Shown piece after piece: positions 2,824-10,419 of a stretch of DNA of 64,000 nt. Every line of letters starts with the position of its first letter. The stretch's first letter is position 1. The notes under the pieces were generated by a model. That model did not search any database. It saw only the letters and a program-made list of their open reading frames with translations, and was not told the origin of the DNA. The translations under genes were made by a program, and so were the position numbers. Source of the DNA: Lysobacter antibioticus (GTDB lineage: Bacteria > Pseudomonadota > Gammaproteobacteria > Xanthomonadales > Xanthomonadaceae); the NCBI RefSeq assembly GCF_001442535.1, contig NZ_CP013141.1:124037-188036 (forward strand). Direction: 5' to 3'.

Positions 2824-4302
2824 TCAGTAGCTCGACAGCCCGCTGGCTTCGCCGAAGCGGTACCAGAGTTTGCGCCAGCCCGATTCGTCGGCGTAGGCCG
2901 GATAGTCGACGCTGATGCCGCGGTGGTCGCCGTTGCCCCAGCTCTGCTCGAAATAACCCGCGGCCTGGCGTGCCACCGGCGCGTCGGACTCGGCCACCAC
3001 GCGCGCGCTGCTTTCCAGGTTGTAGTCGTCGAGATTGCGGCGGGTGTAGTTGGCCGAGCCGGCGATCAGTTCGATGCGGCCGTCGCGGGCGGTCTTCAAC
3101 AGCAGCTTGGCGTGGCATTGCTCGCCATGGGTGTCGCACCAGCGCAGCGGCACGCCGGCGGCATGCAGTTCGCTGGCGACCTGGCGATTGGGCACGCCGT
3201 CCTTCTTGCGCCCGAACGCGTCTTCGTTGGGATCGAGCAGCACACGCAAGGCGACGCCGCGTTTGTGCGCGGCGACCACGGCATTGACCAGGTCGCGATG
3301 GGAGAAATAGAACACCGCGATGTCGATGCGGTCGCCGCCGCGAGCGCCGTCGATGGCGGCGAGCAAGCCGTCGCGGATCCTGGCTTCGGTCAGCAACTGC
3401 ACGCGCGGCGCCGAGGTGGTGTCGACGATGGTCGGCGGCGGCGCCGCGACCGGCAGGCCTTGCGGCCAACGCCCCCCGGACATCGCCACTACCGCGCGCT
3501 CACTCATCAGCACGTCGAGCGCGGCCGCGCCGCGAAAGCGCAGGGCGATATTGCCGTGGCGGCTGCTGCCGTCGTGCGGATTGGCCGAGGACACTAGGGC
3601 GGTCCACCCATCGCCTTCGTCGACGACCAAAGTCTTGCGATGGTTGGCGTTGAGGTTGAACAGCGCGAGCCAACTGCGCAGAGTGACCTTGCCCGGCCCG
3701 AACGGATTCGCGAGCCAGCCGCCCTGCGCGTCGTTGCCGGCCCAACTGCAGCACAGATGCCACAGCCCCGACCAGGTCGGGTTCGGCGTGCGCAGGCGCC
3801 GCAGGTCGGTGATCACCACCTCCACGCCGGCCGCGCGCAAGGCCTGCAGCTGCGGCGATTCGAGGCCGCCGTACACGGTATTGATCGGATCGGTGATCAG
3901 CACGGCGCGCAACTGCGGCACGGCGCGCTTGCGTGCGATCAAAGTCGCGCTGAGCTCGGCGCTGAGGCGGCGGTGCCGCGGGCTGCCGGCATCGGTGCCG
4001 AAGTCGTTGAACAGGAACAGGTCGGCGACCACGCCGCGCTGCGCCTGGCCGATCAAGCGCAGGGTTTCGTCGAACACGTGTTGCTCGGCGAGCCCTTGTT
4101 TGGCGCCGTCGACCCAGGTGACGTCGGTCAGCAACTCGACATTGTCGGCCGAACGCAAGGGCCAGTGCTGGCCGATGCCGGGCGGCAAGGGTTTGTAGAC
4201 GTGATAGACGCCCATCGCCAACCAGGCCAGCGCGAATACAGCGAGGGCCGAACGCAGCCAGCGGCGTCGGCGAGGGGCGGGCGGATCGAGTTCGATGTTC
4301 AA
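2824..4302 (-). CDS. Phospholipase D-like (HKD family) membrane-anchored protein
   Basis: 492 aa, two-domain PLD superfamily protein related to cardiolipin synthases and phosphodiesterases. Seen: an N-terminal cytoplasmic Arg-rich stretch, one TM helix (about 18-34) and a long extracytoplasmic part. The first HKD motif is complete (H221-R-K223 ... D228, followed by SSANPHDGS). The second has H397-A-K399 but Thr404 where the family Asp is expected, followed by GSANYTRRN. The start is a TTG (4302) behind AGGAA; the next in-frame Met lies inside the TM helix, so the TTG is preferred. A phosphatidyltransferase or phosphodiesterase role at the inner membrane is inferred from family. Confidence 0.8.
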   Translation of the reverse strand: MNIELDPPAPRRRRWLRSALAVFALAWLAMGVYHVYKPLPPGIGQHWPLRSADNVELLTDVTWVDGAKQGLAEQHVFDETLRLIGQAQRGVVADLFLFNDFGTDAGSPRHRRLSAELSATLIARKRAVPQLRAVLITDPINTVYGGLESPQLQALRAAGVEVVITDLRRLRTPNPTWSGLWHLCCSWAGNDAQGGWLANPFGPGKVTLRSWLALFNLNANHRKTLVVDEGDGWTALVSSANPHDGSSRHGNIALRFRGAAALDVLMSERAVVAMSGGRWPQGLPVAAPPPTIVDTTSAPRVQLLTEARIRDGLLAAIDGARGGDRIDIAVFYFSHRDLVNAVVAAHKRGVALRVLLDPNEDAFGRKKDGVPNRQVASELHAAGVPLRWCDTHGEQCHAKLLLKTARDGRIELIAGSANYTRRNLDDYNLESSARVVAESDAPVARQAAGYFEQSWGNGDHRGISVDYPAYADESGWRKLWYRFGEASGLSSY

Positions 4303-4696
4303 GGTATTCCTGTCGGCTGGCGCCGTGCATTCCGTGACGAAGTTATAGGACTGGACATGCCGTGTCAGTGTGGCTCGGCATAGACGCCGAGCGAGCCTTG
4401 CGACGACACCGCGATGCAGGGTGCGGCATGGCCGGTCAAGGCGAGGTCATGCGCAAGCCGATGGTGCATTGCAGCGGCGTAATTGACAGTTGACATCGAC
4501 CGGTCCGAGCGCGCAGCGTGTCGGCGCGGAGTTGAGGCGACGGGGTTCGATGGCGGCACGTTATCGCTCCGGAGCAAAGGGCTTCGCTTACGTTCGACGT
4601 CAACGATCGGGACCGGCCCAGGCTCGGACATCGATGAACGGATGTCCGGGATGGACTGTGACCGATTTCACTTATGTTGTGAACAAGGAGAAGTTT
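4303..4696 (+). other. Leader/intergenic region upstream of the lanthipeptide precursor
   Basis: No gene is supported here. It separates the PLD gene from the precursor. It holds a TTGACA-like sequence at 4483-4488 and 4490-4495 without a convincing -10, a hairpin at 4625-4648 (arms CGGACATC and GATGTCCG, 8-nt loop), and a TTCAC/GTGAA inverted repeat at 4667-4683 directly before the ribosome-binding site. The last two could be regulator sites or mRNA structure. Confidence 0.4.
4685..4690 (+). promoter_or_regulatory. Strong ribosome-binding site of the precursor gene
   Basis: AAGGAG, 6 nt before the ATG at 4697. It decides the start among several longer possibilities in the same frame, and suggests strong translation, as expected for a precursor peptide. 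Confidence 0.75.
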
Positions 4697-4882
4697 ATGC
4701 AACAGATCGACGACATCGTTTCGGGCTGGCTGAGCGGTGCGGAAGGCGGCATGGAAAATCCTGCCGGTCCGCTGTACATCGAAGGCATGTCCGCGACCGA
4801 AGCCGCGTTGACCGACAGCAGCCTGCCGCTGTTTACGCGTTGCAGCAGCTGTAGCGCTTCCAGCGGCGGCCAGTGCTGCTAA
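4697..4882 (+). CDS. Candidate class II lanthipeptide precursor (LanA)
   Basis: 61-aa peptide beginning MQQIDDIVSGWLSG, with an acidic amphipathic leader, a central NPAGPLYIEGMSATEAAL segment and a Cys/Ser-rich C-terminus (FTRCSSCSASSGGQCC) with four Cys (49, 52, 60, 61) and many Ser/Thr that could be dehydrated. An excellent AAGGAG at 4685-4690 lies 6 nt before the ATG and fixes the start. It is followed 260 bp later by a LanM synthetase on the same strand, the expected order for class II lanthipeptides. There is no classical double-Gly cleavage site next to the core; GG at 17-18 would leave a 43-residue product. From memory, small proteins of the DUF6229 type beside proteobacterial LanM genes look like this; not verified. 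The precursor role is inference from composition and context. Confidence 0.82.
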   Translation: MQQIDDIVSGWLSGAEGGMENPAGPLYIEGMSATEAALTDSSLPLFTRCSSCSASSGGQCC

Positions 4883-4902
4883 GCCGCAGCTGAGCTGAAG
4901 GG

Positions 4903-4933
4903 CTCGCTCCCGACCCGCGTCGGGAGCGAGTTT
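4903..4933 (+). terminator. Intrinsic terminator or attenuator between precursor and LanM
   Basis: Perfect 12-bp stem (CTCGCTCCCGAC at 4903-4914, GTCGGGAGCGAG at 4919-4930), 4-nt loop CCGC, then TTT. It begins 20 nt after the precursor stop. The short T run suggests partial termination, so the precursor would be made in excess over the enzyme. Confidence 0.75.
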
Positions 4934-5142
4934 CGCAAGCGGCGACGACGATAAGGTTCGCCGCCGCCGACACCGCCACGACCCCGGTCGCACGGCTCTG
5001 CCGCAGCTGCATCGCTGCGCCGTGCATCCACCGCCATACCGGGCAGCGCCGCGCGCCGGATAGAGGCCGCCGCCGCGATGCGCGCCGCGCCAGCCGGGCT
5101 CGTGTTTGCTTCCCATCGATCCAGGCAGGACGCATCGAACCG

Positions 5143-7980
5143 ATGAGCGAAACCCGTAGCGGCGAATCGTTTTTACCGATCATCGAGCTGTTCACCGCCG
5201 ACGCGCGCCGCGCGCTCGGCGCAAGCCTGCAAGCGCTGGCGCCGGGCCTGCACGGCGACGAGATCGCCTTGCTGCGCCGGGTCGGCGAACAAGGCCTCAA
5301 CGACAACGCCCGGCTCAAGATCAGCCGCACCCTGTTGCTGGAACTGCATGCGGCCAAGCTGGGCGGGCAACTGAACGCCGAAGACGACGCCGGCCAGTTC
5401 GCACAGTTCATCGCCCTGGCCACGCAGCCGGAATTCGACCCGCATCTGCGCCGCCGCTATCCGGCGCTGCACGAACGCCTGGGCCGTTCCCTGGAACTGC
5501 AACGGCTGGCGCTGGAAGCGCTGGCGGCGCGTTTCGCCGCCGATCGCGAGGCCTTGTCGGTATTGCTCGGCCGGCCGGCCGGGCGTCTGCTCGCGGTACA
5601 ACCGGGCGAGGGCGACCTGCACGACGGCGGCCAGACCGTCGCCCGCCTGACCCTGGAAGGCGGGCGGGTGATGTACAAGCCGCGCTCGCTGAATATCGAT
5701 CTCGCGCTGGACGTCTTCCTCGGCCGGGTGTTCGCCGACGATGCGCAGCGCATCCGCGTGCCGCATGCGCTCGACCGCGGCGCCTACGGCTGGGCCGGTT
5801 TCGTCGAGCATCGTTACTGCGAGGGCGACGACGAACTCGCCGGCTTCTATCGCAACCTCGGCCATTGGCTGGCGGTAATGCAATTGCTCGGCGGTACCGA
5901 CATCCACCAGGAAAACCTGATCGCGGCCGGGCCGGTGCCGGTCGTCATCGACGTCGAGAGCCTGTTCGCGGTCGAAGTCGAGCCGCCGCCGTCCGGGCGC
6001 GGGCACGCTTTCGATCTGGCCTCCGAATTGATCCGCACCTCGGTGCTGCGCACCGGCATCGTGCCGTTCCGCGCGCCGACGCTGGGCTTGGGCGGCATCG
6101 ACCTGTCCGCGGCCGGGGGCTTGCCCGGCGAGCAGCCGCAGATCCGCGTGCCGACCATCGCCGACGAGGGCACGATGCGGGCGCGGCTGGCGGTGGTCAG
6201 CGCCGACTTCGGCCAGTCGCAGAACCATCCCAGCCCGCATCCGGACGTGTCGCGCTATTGGGACCGCATTACCGACGGTTTCCTGGCCGCGACCGCGCGT
6301 CTGCGCGCGCTCGATGCGGACGGCGCGCTGGCGCCGCTGTTGCAAGGTTTTCTCGGCTGCCGGGTGCGCGACATCCGCCGCCCGACTCAAGCCTATGTCG
6401 AGATCATGCGCATGCTCTGGCACCCGGCCTCGTTGCACGACGAGCCCAAGGCGATCGAGCGCGCCCGCGACATCCTGGCGCGCAACGCGGCGGTGTTGCC
6501 GATCGCGCCGTCGGCGCCGGCCGAGATCGACGGCGAGATCGACGATATGCGCCGCGGCGACGTACCGATCTTCGTCGCTTCGCTCGACGCGGCACGCATC
6601 GAGGAAGCGCTGGTGCATTGGCGCGGCATGCGGGTCGAGCTGGAAGAGCTGACCATCCGCAGCGCCCTGGTCACGGTCGACCTCAATCAACGCCTGGGCC
6701 GGAACGAACGCGTACGCAGCGACGTCTTCGCTCGTCATCCGCATGCCGAACGCCTCGATGCGCGCCGGCGCGCGGTGGCCGCGCGCGCGGTCGAACAACT
6801 GCTGCAACTGGCGGTGCGCGGGAGCGACGGCACGGTGACCTGGATCAGCCCGGTGCTCGGCGATACCGGTTGGGTCACGCGTCCGCTGCAGGCCGACCTC
6901 TACACCGGCCTGGGCGGGGTGGCGCTGGCGCTGGCCGGTTATCTGCACGAAGTCGGGCAGGGCCGCGCAGACCCGGTCGACGGCGCCGAGGCCGCGCTCG
7001 ACGGCGCCATCGCGGTGATGCGCGCGATCGAAACGCAGGACCGGCCGACCACGGTCGGCGGCATGATCGGCTTTGGTGCGCAGGTCTGGACCTGGGTTGC
7101 GCTGCACGATCTGTTGCGGCGACCGCAGATGCTGGAGTGGGCGGTCGAACGCGCCGAGGCGATGGCCCAGGCCGGCTTCGACGGCGACCAATACCTCGAC
7201 CTGCTCGAAGGCGCCAGCGGCACCATCGTGCCCTTGCTGCAACTGGCCGAAGTGCATGCCGACCCGCGTTGGCCGGCGTTGGCCGCGCAAGCCGCGCGCT
7301 ATATGGAAACCCAGGCGATCGTCGACGAACGCGGCGCGCGCTGGCCGTCGACGATCTTCGCCGAGCCGGTCGGCGGTTTCGCCCACGGTGCCAGCGGCAT
7401 CGGCTGGGCGCTCACCCGGATCGGGCTCAGCGAGGCCGGCGATGCCGACGAGCGCGCGCGCTGGCTGACGCTGGCCGAACGGGCCTTCGCTTTCGAAGAC
7501 AGCCTCTACGACGAGGCGGCCGGCAGTTGGCTCGACGCGCGTGTGCCCGACGAACGCCAGTTCCTGCATGCCTGGTGCCACGGCAGCGTCGGCATCGGCT
7601 TGGCCGCGAGCGATCTCTATGCCCGTACCGGCGAGGCCCGGCACCTGCGCACTCTGCGACGCGCGGCCGCCGCGGCTGGCCGCGACGGTTGGGGGCTCGG
7701 GCATACGCTGTGCCATGGCGACCTGGCGCTGTGGGAGTTGCTGACCCGTGCCGCGCGCCTGGACCCGGACGGCGGCGCCCAGACCGACCCGGTCGAGCAC
7801 AGCGCCCAGATCGTCTCGGCGATCGAGGAACATCGCGGCGCGGTCGGCAGCCGCGCCCGCGATGCTTTCACCCCGGGGTTGATGACCGGGGTGGCCGGCG
7901 CCATCCACACCCTCAACCGCATGCACCCGCAATGCGCTCTGGCCTCGCCCTTGCTGTTCGAGCGGCATGCGCCGGGGTAA
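5143..7980 (+). CDS. lanM: Class II lanthipeptide synthetase LanM
   Basis: 945-aa bifunctional enzyme that would dehydrate Ser/Thr of the precursor and form (methyl)lanthionine rings. Seen: N-terminal kinase-like dehydratase domain with a Lys in VMYKPRSL (K179), the DIHQEN loop (D253-N258) and VVIDVES (D270, E272); C-terminal LanC-like cyclase with GFAHGASG (H748) and the zinc ligands C812 in WCHG and C857-H858 in LCHG. All key residues are present and the length fits the family (about 900-1050 aa), so the enzyme looks functional. The ATG at 5143 starts right before the conserved N-terminus. A glycosyltransferase follows after 49 bp with no terminator between. No LanT (ABC transporter with C39 peptidase) lies within the window. 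Confidence 0.93.
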   Translation: MSETRSGESFLPIIELFTADARRALGASLQALAPGLHGDEIALLRRVGEQGLNDNARLKISRTLLLELHAAKLGGQLNAEDDAGQFAQFIALATQPEFDPHLRRRYPALHERLGRSLELQRLALEALAARFAADREALSVLLGRPAGRLLAVQPGEGDLHDGGQTVARLTLEGGRVMYKPRSLNIDLALDVFLGRVFADDAQRIRVPHALDRGAYGWAGFVEHRYCEGDDELAGFYRNLGHWLAVMQLLGGTDIHQENLIAAGPVPVVIDVESLFAVEVEPPPSGRGHAFDLASELIRTSVLRTGIVPFRAPTLGLGGIDLSAAGGLPGEQPQIRVPTIADEGTMRARLAVVSADFGQSQNHPSPHPDVSRYWDRITDGFLAATARLRALDADGALAPLLQGFLGCRVRDIRRPTQAYVEIMRMLWHPASLHDEPKAIERARDILARNAAVLPIAPSAPAEIDGEIDDMRRGDVPIFVASLDAARIEEALVHWRGMRVELEELTIRSALVTVDLNQRLGRNERVRSDVFARHPHAERLDARRRAVAARAVEQLLQLAVRGSDGTVTWISPVLGDTGWVTRPLQADLYTGLGGVALALAGYLHEVGQGRADPVDGAEAALDGAIAVMRAIETQDRPTTVGGMIGFGAQVWTWVALHDLLRRPQMLEWAVERAEAMAQAGFDGDQYLDLLEGASGTIVPLLQLAEVHADPRWPALAAQAARYMETQAIVDERGARWPSTIFAEPVGGFAHGASGIGWALTRIGLSEAGDADERARWLTLAERAFAFEDSLYDEAAGSWLDARVPDERQFLHAWCHGSVGIGLAASDLYARTGEARHLRTLRRAAAAAGRDGWGLGHTLCHGDLALWELLTRAARLDPDGGAQTDPVEHSAQIVSAIEEHRGAVGSRARDAFTPGLMTGVAGAIHTLNRMHPQCALASPLLFERHAPG

Positions 7981-8029
7981 GCGCCGCGGCCGCCACAAAT
8001 CCGTCATGGGCGAGGCCTAGGCTGGCAGG

Positions 8030-9250
8030 ATGAACATCCTGATGCTGTCGGACGTGTACTTCCCGCGGGTCAACGGCGTGTCGACCTCGATCCGCACTTT
8101 CGCCCAGTCGCTGGCGCGCAGCGGGCATGCGGTGACCCTGGTCGTGCCCGACTACGGTCCCGGCAGCGGCCAGGAGCTGCACGACAGCGACGAGTTCGAG
8201 ATCGTCCGGTTACAGGCGCGGGTGATCTTCTTCGACCCCGAAGACCGTCTGATCCGCGCACCGGAACTGCGCCGGATTCTGCCGCAACTGGCGCAGCGGC
8301 ACTGGGACGTGATCCACATCCACACGCCGTTCCGCGCCCACCGACTCGGCGTGCAACTGGCGCAAGCCAGCGGCCGGCCCACGGTCGAGACTTACCACAC
8401 CTATTTCGAGGAATATATCGGCCACTACCTGCCGTGGGCGCCGGCGCCGCTGCTGCGCTTCGTCGCCCGGCGCGTGTCGCGCACGCTCTGCCACGGCGTC
8501 GATCACCTCATCGTGCCGACCGCGCAAATGGTCGAGGTGCTGGACCGCTACGGCGTGACCACGCCGTCGACGGTGCTGCCGACCGGCATCGACCTGAGCG
8601 AGTTCGCCCGCGGCGACGGCGCGCGTTTCCGCGCCGAGCACGAGATCGATGCGCGGCGGCCGACCATCGTCACGGTGAGCCGGCTCGCGGTGGAAAAGAA
8701 CATCGCCTTCCTGTTGCAGGTGGCGCGGCGCCTGATCGCCGATTTCCCCGAGCTCATGTTCATCATCGCCGGCGAGGGGCCGGATGCGGAGCGCCTCAAG
8801 CGCCTGTCGAAGGAGTTCGGCCTGGAACGCAACGTGCGTTTCTTCGGCAACCTCGACCGCCGCACCAGCCTGCTCGATGCCTACCGCGCCGGCGATGCCT
8901 TCGTGTTCGCCTCGCCGACCGAAACCCAGGGCTTGGTGCTGATCGAAGCGATGGCGCTCGGCGTGCCGATCGTCTCGACCGCGGTGATGGGCACGGCGAC
9001 CGTCCTGCGCGGCGCGCGCAGCGCCGTGGTCAGCGAGGAGAACGTCGAAGCTTTCGCGAGGCACGTCGGCGATGTGCTGCGTTCGCCGCAGCGCCGCGCC
9101 GAACTGGCGGCGGCCGGCCCGCTCGACGCGCGCGCCTGGAGCACCGAAGGCCTGATGGAGCAGGTGGTGACCTTGTACCAACGCCTTGCCCAAGCCAAAC
9201 CGGCGTTGATGACCACGACTTCGACGACGGCGACCGAGTTGTCGCGATAG
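8030..9250 (+). CDS. Family 4 (GT-B) glycosyltransferase
   Basis: 406 aa, cytoplasmic or membrane-associated retaining glycosyltransferase of the GT4 type. Seen: N-terminal MLSDVYFPRVNGVSTSIRTF, typical of the MgtA-like/diacylglycerol glycosyltransferase branch, followed by YHTYFEEYIGHYLPW; donor-binding half with VTVSRLAVEKN and the E-x7-E motif in SPTETQGLVLIEAMALG. It begins 49 bp after lanM on the same strand, so co-transcription is likely. It may sugar-modify the lanthipeptide or may make a glycolipid; the sequence motif resemblance is to glycolipid enzymes, so the link to the peptide is only positional. Confidence 0.87.
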   Translation: MNILMLSDVYFPRVNGVSTSIRTFAQSLARSGHAVTLVVPDYGPGSGQELHDSDEFEIVRLQARVIFFDPEDRLIRAPELRRILPQLAQRHWDVIHIHTPFRAHRLGVQLAQASGRPTVETYHTYFEEYIGHYLPWAPAPLLRFVARRVSRTLCHGVDHLIVPTAQMVEVLDRYGVTTPSTVLPTGIDLSEFARGDGARFRAEHEIDARRPTIVTVSRLAVEKNIAFLLQVARRLIADFPELMFIIAGEGPDAERLKRLSKEFGLERNVRFFGNLDRRTSLLDAYRAGDAFVFASPTETQGLVLIEAMALGVPIVSTAVMGTATVLRGARSAVVSEENVEAFARHVGDVLRSPQRRAELAAAGPLDARAWSTEGLMEQVVTLYQRLAQAKPALMTTTSTTATELSR

Positions 9251-10419
9251 GCTCGGCGCGAGGCCGCGGCTGCACGGTAGCGACTGACGTAGCTCCTACA
9301 GAGTTCCTGTCGTTACCGGCGCACATGTCGTGGACGTAAATATTTTGCCATTGCCATTGCCATTGCCGTAGCCGTAGCCGTAGCCGTGCTGTTGCTGTGC
9401 GCAGCTTCGCACTAGCGAAGGCAACAGAAGACCCGGAGGGCGGTGCGCAGGGATGCGCGCCGTTTTTCATCGGGACAGGGATGTCCCGTATGAAAAATCC
9501 CTGCGGAGGCATCGAACGCGCGGGCCTGTGATTCAAAAAGAAGCATTTTTCTTTGGTTACCTTTCTTTTGTTGCTTATGACAAAAGAAAGTAACCCGCCG
9601 CTTTAGTGGCGGAAGCTTTTGGCGTTTGATCCTGGTCGTGTTTCTGAGAAGCTTCAAGCAAGAGCAGGGCTTCCGTCCGCTGACGCGGCCGGGTTACTTT
9701 CTTTTGCTAAGCCCAAAAGAAAGCTAACCAAAGAAAAGGGCTCTCCTTGCAAGGGCACAAGCCACCAGTGCGATGCCCGCGCCGGGATTTTCCGATAAGA
9801 CGTCCCTGTCTTATCGGAAAACGGCGCACGTCCTGTGCGCCGCCCTCCGGGTCTCCACTTGACCGGCAAAGCAGCAAAGCAGATCAGAATCTCGGCAACG
9901 GCAACGGCAACGGCAACAGCAACGGTTAAATTCCACTGTGCTGTTGCTGTGCGCAGATTCGCACTAGCGAAGGCAACAGAAGACCCGGAGGGCGGCACGC
10001 AGGGATGCGTGCCGTTTTTCATCGGGACAGGGATGTCCGGTATGAAAAATCCCCGCGGCGGCAACGCTCGTGCGGGCCTGTGATTCAAAAGAAAAGCATT
10101 TTTCTTTGGTTACCTTTCTTTTGTTGCTTATGACAAAAGAAAGTAACCCGCCGCTTTAGTGGCGGAAGCTCTTGGCGTTTTATCTAGATCTTGGTCTTGC
10201 TTGAAAGAGACGCCGCAAGACCATCGCAGCGCGGTCGCGGCTCGCGCCGCTCCTACCCTCGCGACAGCTCACGCCTTCGATCAATCGCGAAGGCGCTGAA
10301 AAACCTGCGAATCCCGCGGTCGCGACTTATGACCGAAGGAAATCCAGTAGGACGCCGCTCCTACAGGGACGGAGCCGCTGTGCCGTGTCGGTCGAGCAAG
10401 TGTGTGAGTAAAGCAAGTC
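9251..10419. repeat. Gene-free block of three structured intergenic repeat elements
   Basis: Contains no supported gene. It holds three copies of one element: copy 1 about 9389-9640 (forward), copy 2 about 9651-9923 (reverse), copy 3 about 9930-10186 (forward). Each copy is a row of hairpins, and hexamer tracts sit at the tail end (GCCATT/GCCGTA at 9347-9388; GGCAAC at 9894-9923). 10230-10400 adds REP-like palindromes of the GTCGCGGCTCGCGCCGCTCCTAC type. Several short open frames inside are artefacts of the repeats. Confidence 0.85.
9442..9612 (+). repeat. Hairpin array of repeat copy 1
   Basis: Four hairpins in a row: H1 9442-9461 (GGTGCGCA/TGCGCGCC, loop GGGA); H2 9463-9497 (outer arms TTTTTCAT/ATGAAAAA, inner arms CGGGACA/TGTCCCG, loop GGGA, one bulge); H3 9555-9595 (9-bp CTTTTG-side arm plus GGTTAC/GTAACC, 10-nt loop); H4 9595-9612 (CCGCC/GGCGG). 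The same order recurs in every full copy. Confidence 0.8.

Follow-up and report, generated by a model that had tools for sequence, protein, structure and literature searches.

Our analysis of a 64,000-nucleotide stretch of the Lysobacter antibioticus genome (the window) points with high confidence to a class II lanthipeptide cassette of two genes, in which a DUF6229 precursor gene (LanA) is followed by the gene of a LanM synthetase predicted to modify the precursor; this very probable reading includes the mechanism proposed here. LanM would bind the NPAGPLY leader of the precursor, would dehydrate Ser and Thr residues in its C-terminal part and would then close likely thioether rings with the four Cys residues. 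The cassette is probably functional. The precursor peptide, which the initial annotation had treated as an oddity, is thereby reread as a member of a published precursor family, the likely borders of the cluster are fixed at 4697-7980, and a ring pattern is proposed for a core that is found in three phyla. The result also sharpens the question of how lanthipeptides encoded by a precursor and a synthetase alone are trimmed and exported. What looks new is a TxCSSC[ST]xS...CC core in three phyla, ancestral-looking in part of the LanM tree and sharing its spacing with rhodanocins.

Features of the LanA-LanM cassette and their positions in the window
Feature	Position	Strand	Basis
Ribosome-binding-site-like AAGGAGAA 5' of LanA	4685..4692	+	read from the sequence
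LanA precursor gene, 61 aa, DUF6229 / PF19740	4697..4882	+	PF19740 match, alignment, pairing with LanM
13-bp GC-rich hairpin in the LanA-LanM gap	4902..4931	+	z -3.2 and -3.5
LanM class II lanthipeptide synthetase, 945 aa	5143..7980	+	domain, family and motif matches

The synthetase comprises a LanM dehydratase domain (DUF4135, PF13575; residues 106-479) and a LanC-like cyclase domain (PF05147, LANC_like; residues 581-928), and it scores 502.7 bits against TIGR03897 (cut-off 304). Its motifs KPRS (179), TDIHQEN (252), VIDVESLF (268), WCHG (811) and LCHG (856) align with LicM2; that their residues fill the kinase-like and zinc-site roles we presume from work on CylM and NisC. The initial annotation had described a complete LanM with zinc and kinase-like residues, and the corresponding motifs are present. 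Homology extends to LicM2 (E 1e-52 over residues 60-876) and CylM (E 1.5e-22), so that by sequence the enzyme belongs to the same family as CylM and LicM2 (PDB 5dzt, 6st5). Of the features expected of class II, the fused dehydratase and cyclase, the motifs and an adjacent precursor with C-terminal Ser, Thr and Cys are present. The nearest relative is genome G001, where LanM is 94% and the downstream glycosyltransferase 98% identical.

The LanA frame, as read from the sequence, runs from an ATG at 4697 through 61 codons to a stop codon at 4880-4882. Counted by eye, AAGGAG occurs within 60 nt 5' of 27 of the 34 DUF6229 ORFs of the genus. The peptide ends in TRCSSCSASSGGQCC, a terminus of the CSSC...CC type, and its residues 39-61 hold four Cys and nine Ser/Thr. 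Both the four C-terminal Cys and the order of peptide and LanM had been described correctly from the outset. Against PF19740 the peptide scores 91.5 bits over residues 1-61 (E 3.1e-26; curated Pfam cut-off 25 bits), and this E value together with the retention of the gene in relatives makes the match more than chance. By its sequence LanA is thus not an oddity: it belongs to DUF6229, a published precursor family, and the supposedly unusual precursor carries an ordinary DUF6229 leader. NPAGPLY (residues 21-27), which had been called distinctive, is by the same comparison the leader signature of the family, PAG being present in 140 of 140 distinct DUF6229 precursors including that of the window (73 came from a scan requiring NPAG, the rest from Pfam searches without that requirement). 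A CC pair stands among the last five residues in 130 of the 140. The statement that no GG lies next to the core holds literally, but at the position of Glu29-Gly30 the family has GG in 59 and EG in 47 of the 140 precursors, the LanA of the window having EG. Compared with G001, LanA shows one synonymous and four non-synonymous codon differences in 61 codons, and LanM 144 synonymous and 55 non-synonymous ones in 945; synonymous changes in LanA look few in this comparison. In the 200 nt upstream, two substitutions and one internal indel separate G000 (the genome of the window) from G001, whereas 199 of the 945 LanM codons differ.

Findings of this kind are already in print, since PMC9576775 and PMC11451712 describe DUF6229 lanthipeptides. 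According to the accessible sections of PMC9576775, a Dyella DUF6229 precursor was dehydrated and cyclised by its own LanM in E. coli, its rings were assigned by NMR, the group was named rhodanocins, and DUF6229 is said to hold at least two lanthipeptide groups. Rhodanocins (Dyella sp. 333MFSha and other Rhodanobacteraceae) share the DUF6229 leader and the LanM partner with the cassette of the window. The accessible text of PMC11451712 reports 72 class II clusters mined from 24 Lysobacter genomes, with 27 unique precursors, 21 of them DUF6229, and a precursor similarity network of six families; cultures yielded known compounds only. These lanthipeptides match ours in genus, precursor family and class, and the core of the window may be one of those precursors. 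The view that Lysobacter lanthipeptides are little described is accordingly out of date as far as genomics is concerned. A two-gene border, an empty site or a core common to other phyla is not mentioned in the accessible text of PMC11451712. In the parts accessible, PMC10745450 and PMC10380237 report raised LanM gene expression for L. gummosus and L. capsici; according to both, no lanthipeptide had been isolated from Lysobacter. PMC12715929, as far as its text is accessible, sorts class II clusters on the basis of their core peptide, their transport machinery and their LanM, criteria by which cassettes like LanA-LanM could be left out, and the accessible part of PMC11251773 names none of the genera sought. 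The string NPAGPL had no match in the open-access literature searched.

The pairing of precursor and synthetase is constant. In the genus, 34 DUF6229 genes were found in 16 of 20 genomes (that of the window included) and none in the other four, and each of the 34 is followed on its own strand by a LanM at a distance of 2-430 bp; there are only 31 LanMs for these 34 precursors because three genomes have tandem precursor pairs. At least 23 of 297 genomes in a family sample and at least 44 of 398 in an order sample carry DUF6229, with at most 15-20 candidates per genome scored, and outside the genus LanM lies beside 58 of 58 DUF6229 genes among the matches listed in these samples. Among named genomes, LanM follows 78 of 80 DUF6229 genes (cut by a contig end in three, in pieces in one), and at the two loci without LanM the contigs stop 93 and 20 bases past the peptide. 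The named scan, which kept 80 of 102 relatives, used the single pattern NPAG[PS]L[YF][ILV][EGS]G and favours that motif; the Pfam searches of the genus, family and order samples have no such bias. The genus, named and order sets overlap in part and together yield the 140 distinct precursors. No relative of the cassette was found on viral contigs, and plasmids gave no match.

Conversely, the genus holds 51 DUF4135 matches, reduced to 43 when eight weak partial ones (31-47 bits) are set aside, and 31 of the 43 genes have a DUF6229 gene no more than 5 kb away. The other 12 are, judged by sequence, different enzymes: eight are only 27-29% identical to the LanM of the window, five of these standing beside a different small precursor, and the other four are some 8.2 kb distant from a C39 domain. 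Homologous LanM genes consistently paired with another small ORF had been proposed at the start as a counter-indication, and in the genus such ORFs were seen only beside distant LanMs. With a LanM beside all 34 DUF6229 genes of the genus, all 58 from the rest of the order sample and 78 of the 80 named loci, the original suggestion that the peptide is the substrate of the adjacent LanM is very likely right. Prochlorosins are LanM substrates encoded in trans, and LanM enzymes with such substrates do exist. That the 61-aa peptide is not a LanM substrate and that the true one is encoded elsewhere is nevertheless very improbable, given the constant pairing over three phyla, the clustering of core types on the LanM tree (see below), the single DUF6229 gene in the entire L. 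antibioticus genome and the modification of a characterised DUF6229 precursor by its own LanM (accessible sections of PMC9576775). The second LanM-type gene of the window's genome (G000:C1:5326325-5334908, locus L069) has its C39 domain 8.2 kb away, the same distance as for LanM-type genes of G001, G008 and G014. The distant LanMs L191-L195 (G008, G014, G010, G003, G002) stand with a small precursor MPMNAEISQD...SCVYTSCHNC, for which a scan of one copy gave no Pfam family above cut-off.

Precursor and synthetase genes are flanked by a phospholipase-D-like gene (2824-4302) and a glycosyltransferase gene (8030-9250), neither of which we accept as a cluster member. The case for the glycosyltransferase as a member that decorates the product is its position, 49 bp past the LanM stop on the same strand, and its presence after LanM in five of the five genus genomes of this subtype. 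Against it, every one of the 20 genus genomes (that of the window included) yields a single match to the gene at E 1e-100 or better, and LanM adjoins it in only five of them, leaving 15 without LanM next to it; among the 31 genus contexts, its protein cluster (c6) is confined to those five; and the named loci show no recurrent glycosyltransferase cluster. The flanks stand next to each other (140-506 bp) without LanA and LanM in 10 of the 20 genomes, with the pair between them in five, while in the remaining five the fetched stretch showed no phospholipase-like gene. Because the flanks adjoin without the pair in these 10 genomes, the glycosyltransferase falls outside the cluster, and its membership is hardly credible; the phospholipase-D-like gene is likewise a conserved flank. 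Adjacency of the flanks and the presence of the glycosyltransferase in all 20 genomes make 4697-7980 the likely extent of the cassette, as judged from these genome comparisons. The compact class II locus proposed initially is thus upheld, with its 3' end drawn back from 9250, which had taken in the glycosyltransferase. At the empty site of the other genomes the cassette would have been either lost or gained. Seen by eye, 9300-10250, 3' of the glycosyltransferase, has long near-repeats with runs like GTTACCTTTCTTTTG and its inverse.

CSSC cores were found in Lysobacter, Luteimonas, Streptomyces, Kitasatospora and Corallococcus as well as in a further family of the order, and at the sequence level the TxCSSC[ST]xS...CC core is present in three phyla. 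Five actinomycete and myxobacterial peptides that were scanned match PF19740 at 72-90 bits. The LanM tree was built from 70 of 102 usable LanMs and an outgroup of three distant LanMs, on which its root lies; 10 near-duplicates and 22 of 33 CSSP rows were dropped, LanM matches shorter than about 800 residues and the rows with internal stops (L159, L169, L179) had been left out beforehand, and the 58 LanMs from outside the genus (order sample) are absent from it. Core type clusters on this tree, with nine label changes against 45.1 in shuffles and as low a number in 0 of 200, a statistic helped by near-copies. CSSC rows form a grade across the three phyla with three label changes, and the 51-row branch that makes this grade (deepest fork) has a support of 89, unstarred. 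Within this branch, the remaining Luteimonas, Lysobacter and Dyella cores are nested inside the grade, which suggests that CSSC is perhaps ancestral there; by itself the tree is compatible with a single gain and two losses as well as with other histories. Outside this branch lies another Lysobacter branch, whose cores are of other types. The CSSC core type is hence wider, and perhaps older, than it had appeared at first. We found no report of a CSSC core common to several phyla in the open-access literature searched.

For rhodanocin, the accessible sections of PMC9576775 give four dehydrations and three rings by NMR (T6-C11, C8-S14 and T12-C23); the NMR structure also has a Dhb at position 18, formed from Thr. 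Seven rhodanocin-like precursors were found in the order, four of which have T6, C8, C11, T12, S14, T18 and C23 exactly when numbered from the residue after GG; the published precursor WP_043693394 was not among the sequences compared. Thr47, Cys49, Cys52, Ser53 and Ser55 of LanA have the same spacing as T6/C8/C11/T12/S14, and T18 and C23 are without a counterpart. We do not file the peptide as a rhodanocin, and it may work like one. From the match in spacing we propose three rings: Thr47-Cys52, a backward-closed Cys49-Ser55, and one from Ser53 to either Cys60 or Cys61; whichever of these two Cys is left over would pair with Ser50 or Ser51. The chances of this pattern are about even, and fully equal weight goes to the possibility that the rings are unrelated to those of rhodanocin and that the TxCxxC[ST]xS spacing is incidental, with, for instance, four forward rings. 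PMC11451712 states in its accessible text that the Cys, Ser and Thr positions of Lysobacter cores differ from rhodanocin, suggesting other structures. The tails differ too: rhodanocin has a single Cys nine residues past S14, whereas LanA has CC after four residues, and LanMs beside rhodanocin-like precursors are 38-41% identical to that of the window. The [ST]xCxxC[ST]xS spacing is absent from 98 of the 140 distinct precursors and arises in 3074 of 200000 shuffles of the last 22 LanA residues (1.5%). For the rhodanocin-like rings speaks that the spacing is kept in 42 of the 140 (34 with Thr first, 8 with Ser first), in three phyla and on either side of the deepest division that the tree shows among LanMs linked to DUF6229. 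The Thr47 position is Thr in 24 of 24 CSSC cores chosen from 93 distinct precursors by a pattern that fixes Cys and most [ST] but has no bearing on Thr47 or on the constant spacing; in the order set, eight of the precursors with the spacing carry Ser at this position.

In contrast to the cassette of the window, the gene clusters of lichenicidin and cytolysin include dedicated transporter-protease and immunity genes. A LanT with a C39 protease, usual though not universal for class II, is absent from the cluster; cleavage of the leader, near Glu29-Gly30 or deeper into the peptide, would fall to a protease whose gene lies outside the cluster, and export of the product to an unlinked system. Neighbour clustering over 31 genus contexts and 80 named loci returned LanM as the only gene recurring throughout; it used crude ORFs of at least 90 aa within about 9 kb (genus) or 6 kb (named) on each side, so that short or fast-evolving genes could be missed. 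In the 80 named loci the LanM cluster occurs in 77, precursor read-throughs in 11 and every other cluster in at most five; one five-locus cluster resembles an ABC transporter by eye. The window's genome has six C39 matches; along the linear coordinates the closest one (1607546) is some 1.5 Mb distant from the locus (128733). No C39 lies on the same contig within 106 kb of any of 21 DUF6229 clusters of the genus, and for 10 further ones the contig, in some cases shorter than 100 kb, has none. A tblastn search for C39 in 165 contexts also found none, a weak control with a query lacking the N-terminal active-site part. An M13 peptidase cluster (one member scanned, PF05649/PF01431) adjoins or nearly adjoins LanM in eight of the 31 genus contexts, none of which is of the CSSC subtype; as a putative leader protease it was not adopted.

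As an alternative, the product may be an antibacterial lantibiotic that leaves the cell, with export and trimming carried out by one of the genome's six unlinked C39-domain proteins. The six matches, the GG at the leader site of many family members and the inhibition of K. pneumoniae by AspN-cut rhodanocin at 126 uM (accessible sections of PMC9576775) lend it some plausibility. No exporter or immunity-like cluster recurs throughout the 31 genus and 80 named contexts, though small or fast-evolving genes could escape; LanA has EG rather than GG; the C39 protease LahT150 failed to cut the rhodanocin precursor despite a possible GG site (same source, same sections); and the rhodanocin activity reported was weak and came from a non-native cut. 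We regard this alternative as a serious yet somewhat doubtful one. An extension of the two-gene cassette reading, which we offer tentatively and think rather unlikely, is an ancient portable DUF6229-LanM system of Pseudomonadota, Actinomycetota and Myxococcota with an ancestral TxCSSC[ST]xS...CC core and a backward ring. Its product would use housekeeping export and proteolysis or stay inside the cell, from which a conserved cellular or signalling role would follow rather than that of a lineage-specific antibiotic.

LanA had been placed directly before LanM; in fact 260 bp containing a stable hairpin intervene. The hairpin is found in the same position in three related loci (z -4.5, -6.0 and -3.7), and in two tandem precursor pairs it follows the last copy only, the first copies giving z -0.1 and +1.0. 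For 28 distinct precursors of the genus, z has a median of -1.95 and falls below -2 in 13, so that the hairpin is common and not general. By analogy with other lantibiotic operons, on which such a role in the LanA:LanM ratio is modelled, it likely acts as an attenuator or stabilises the mRNA, thereby setting the ratio of precursor to enzyme, and it would likely keep the LanM transcript level under that of LanA. Pattern scans of 4300-5200 for promoters and T-run terminators found none, and Rfam gave three matches in that range (E up to 1), none above the gathering score. A CRP-like site, TGTGACCGATTTCACT, 40 nt 5' of the start codon was rejected, being present in the window's genome and G001 and absent from G006 and G016. 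The block GAGCGCGCAGCGTGTCGGCGCGGAGTTG (4507-4534, about 165-190 nt 5' of the precursor), for which no Rfam family reached threshold, is kept in all four loci printed (window, G001, G006 and G016).
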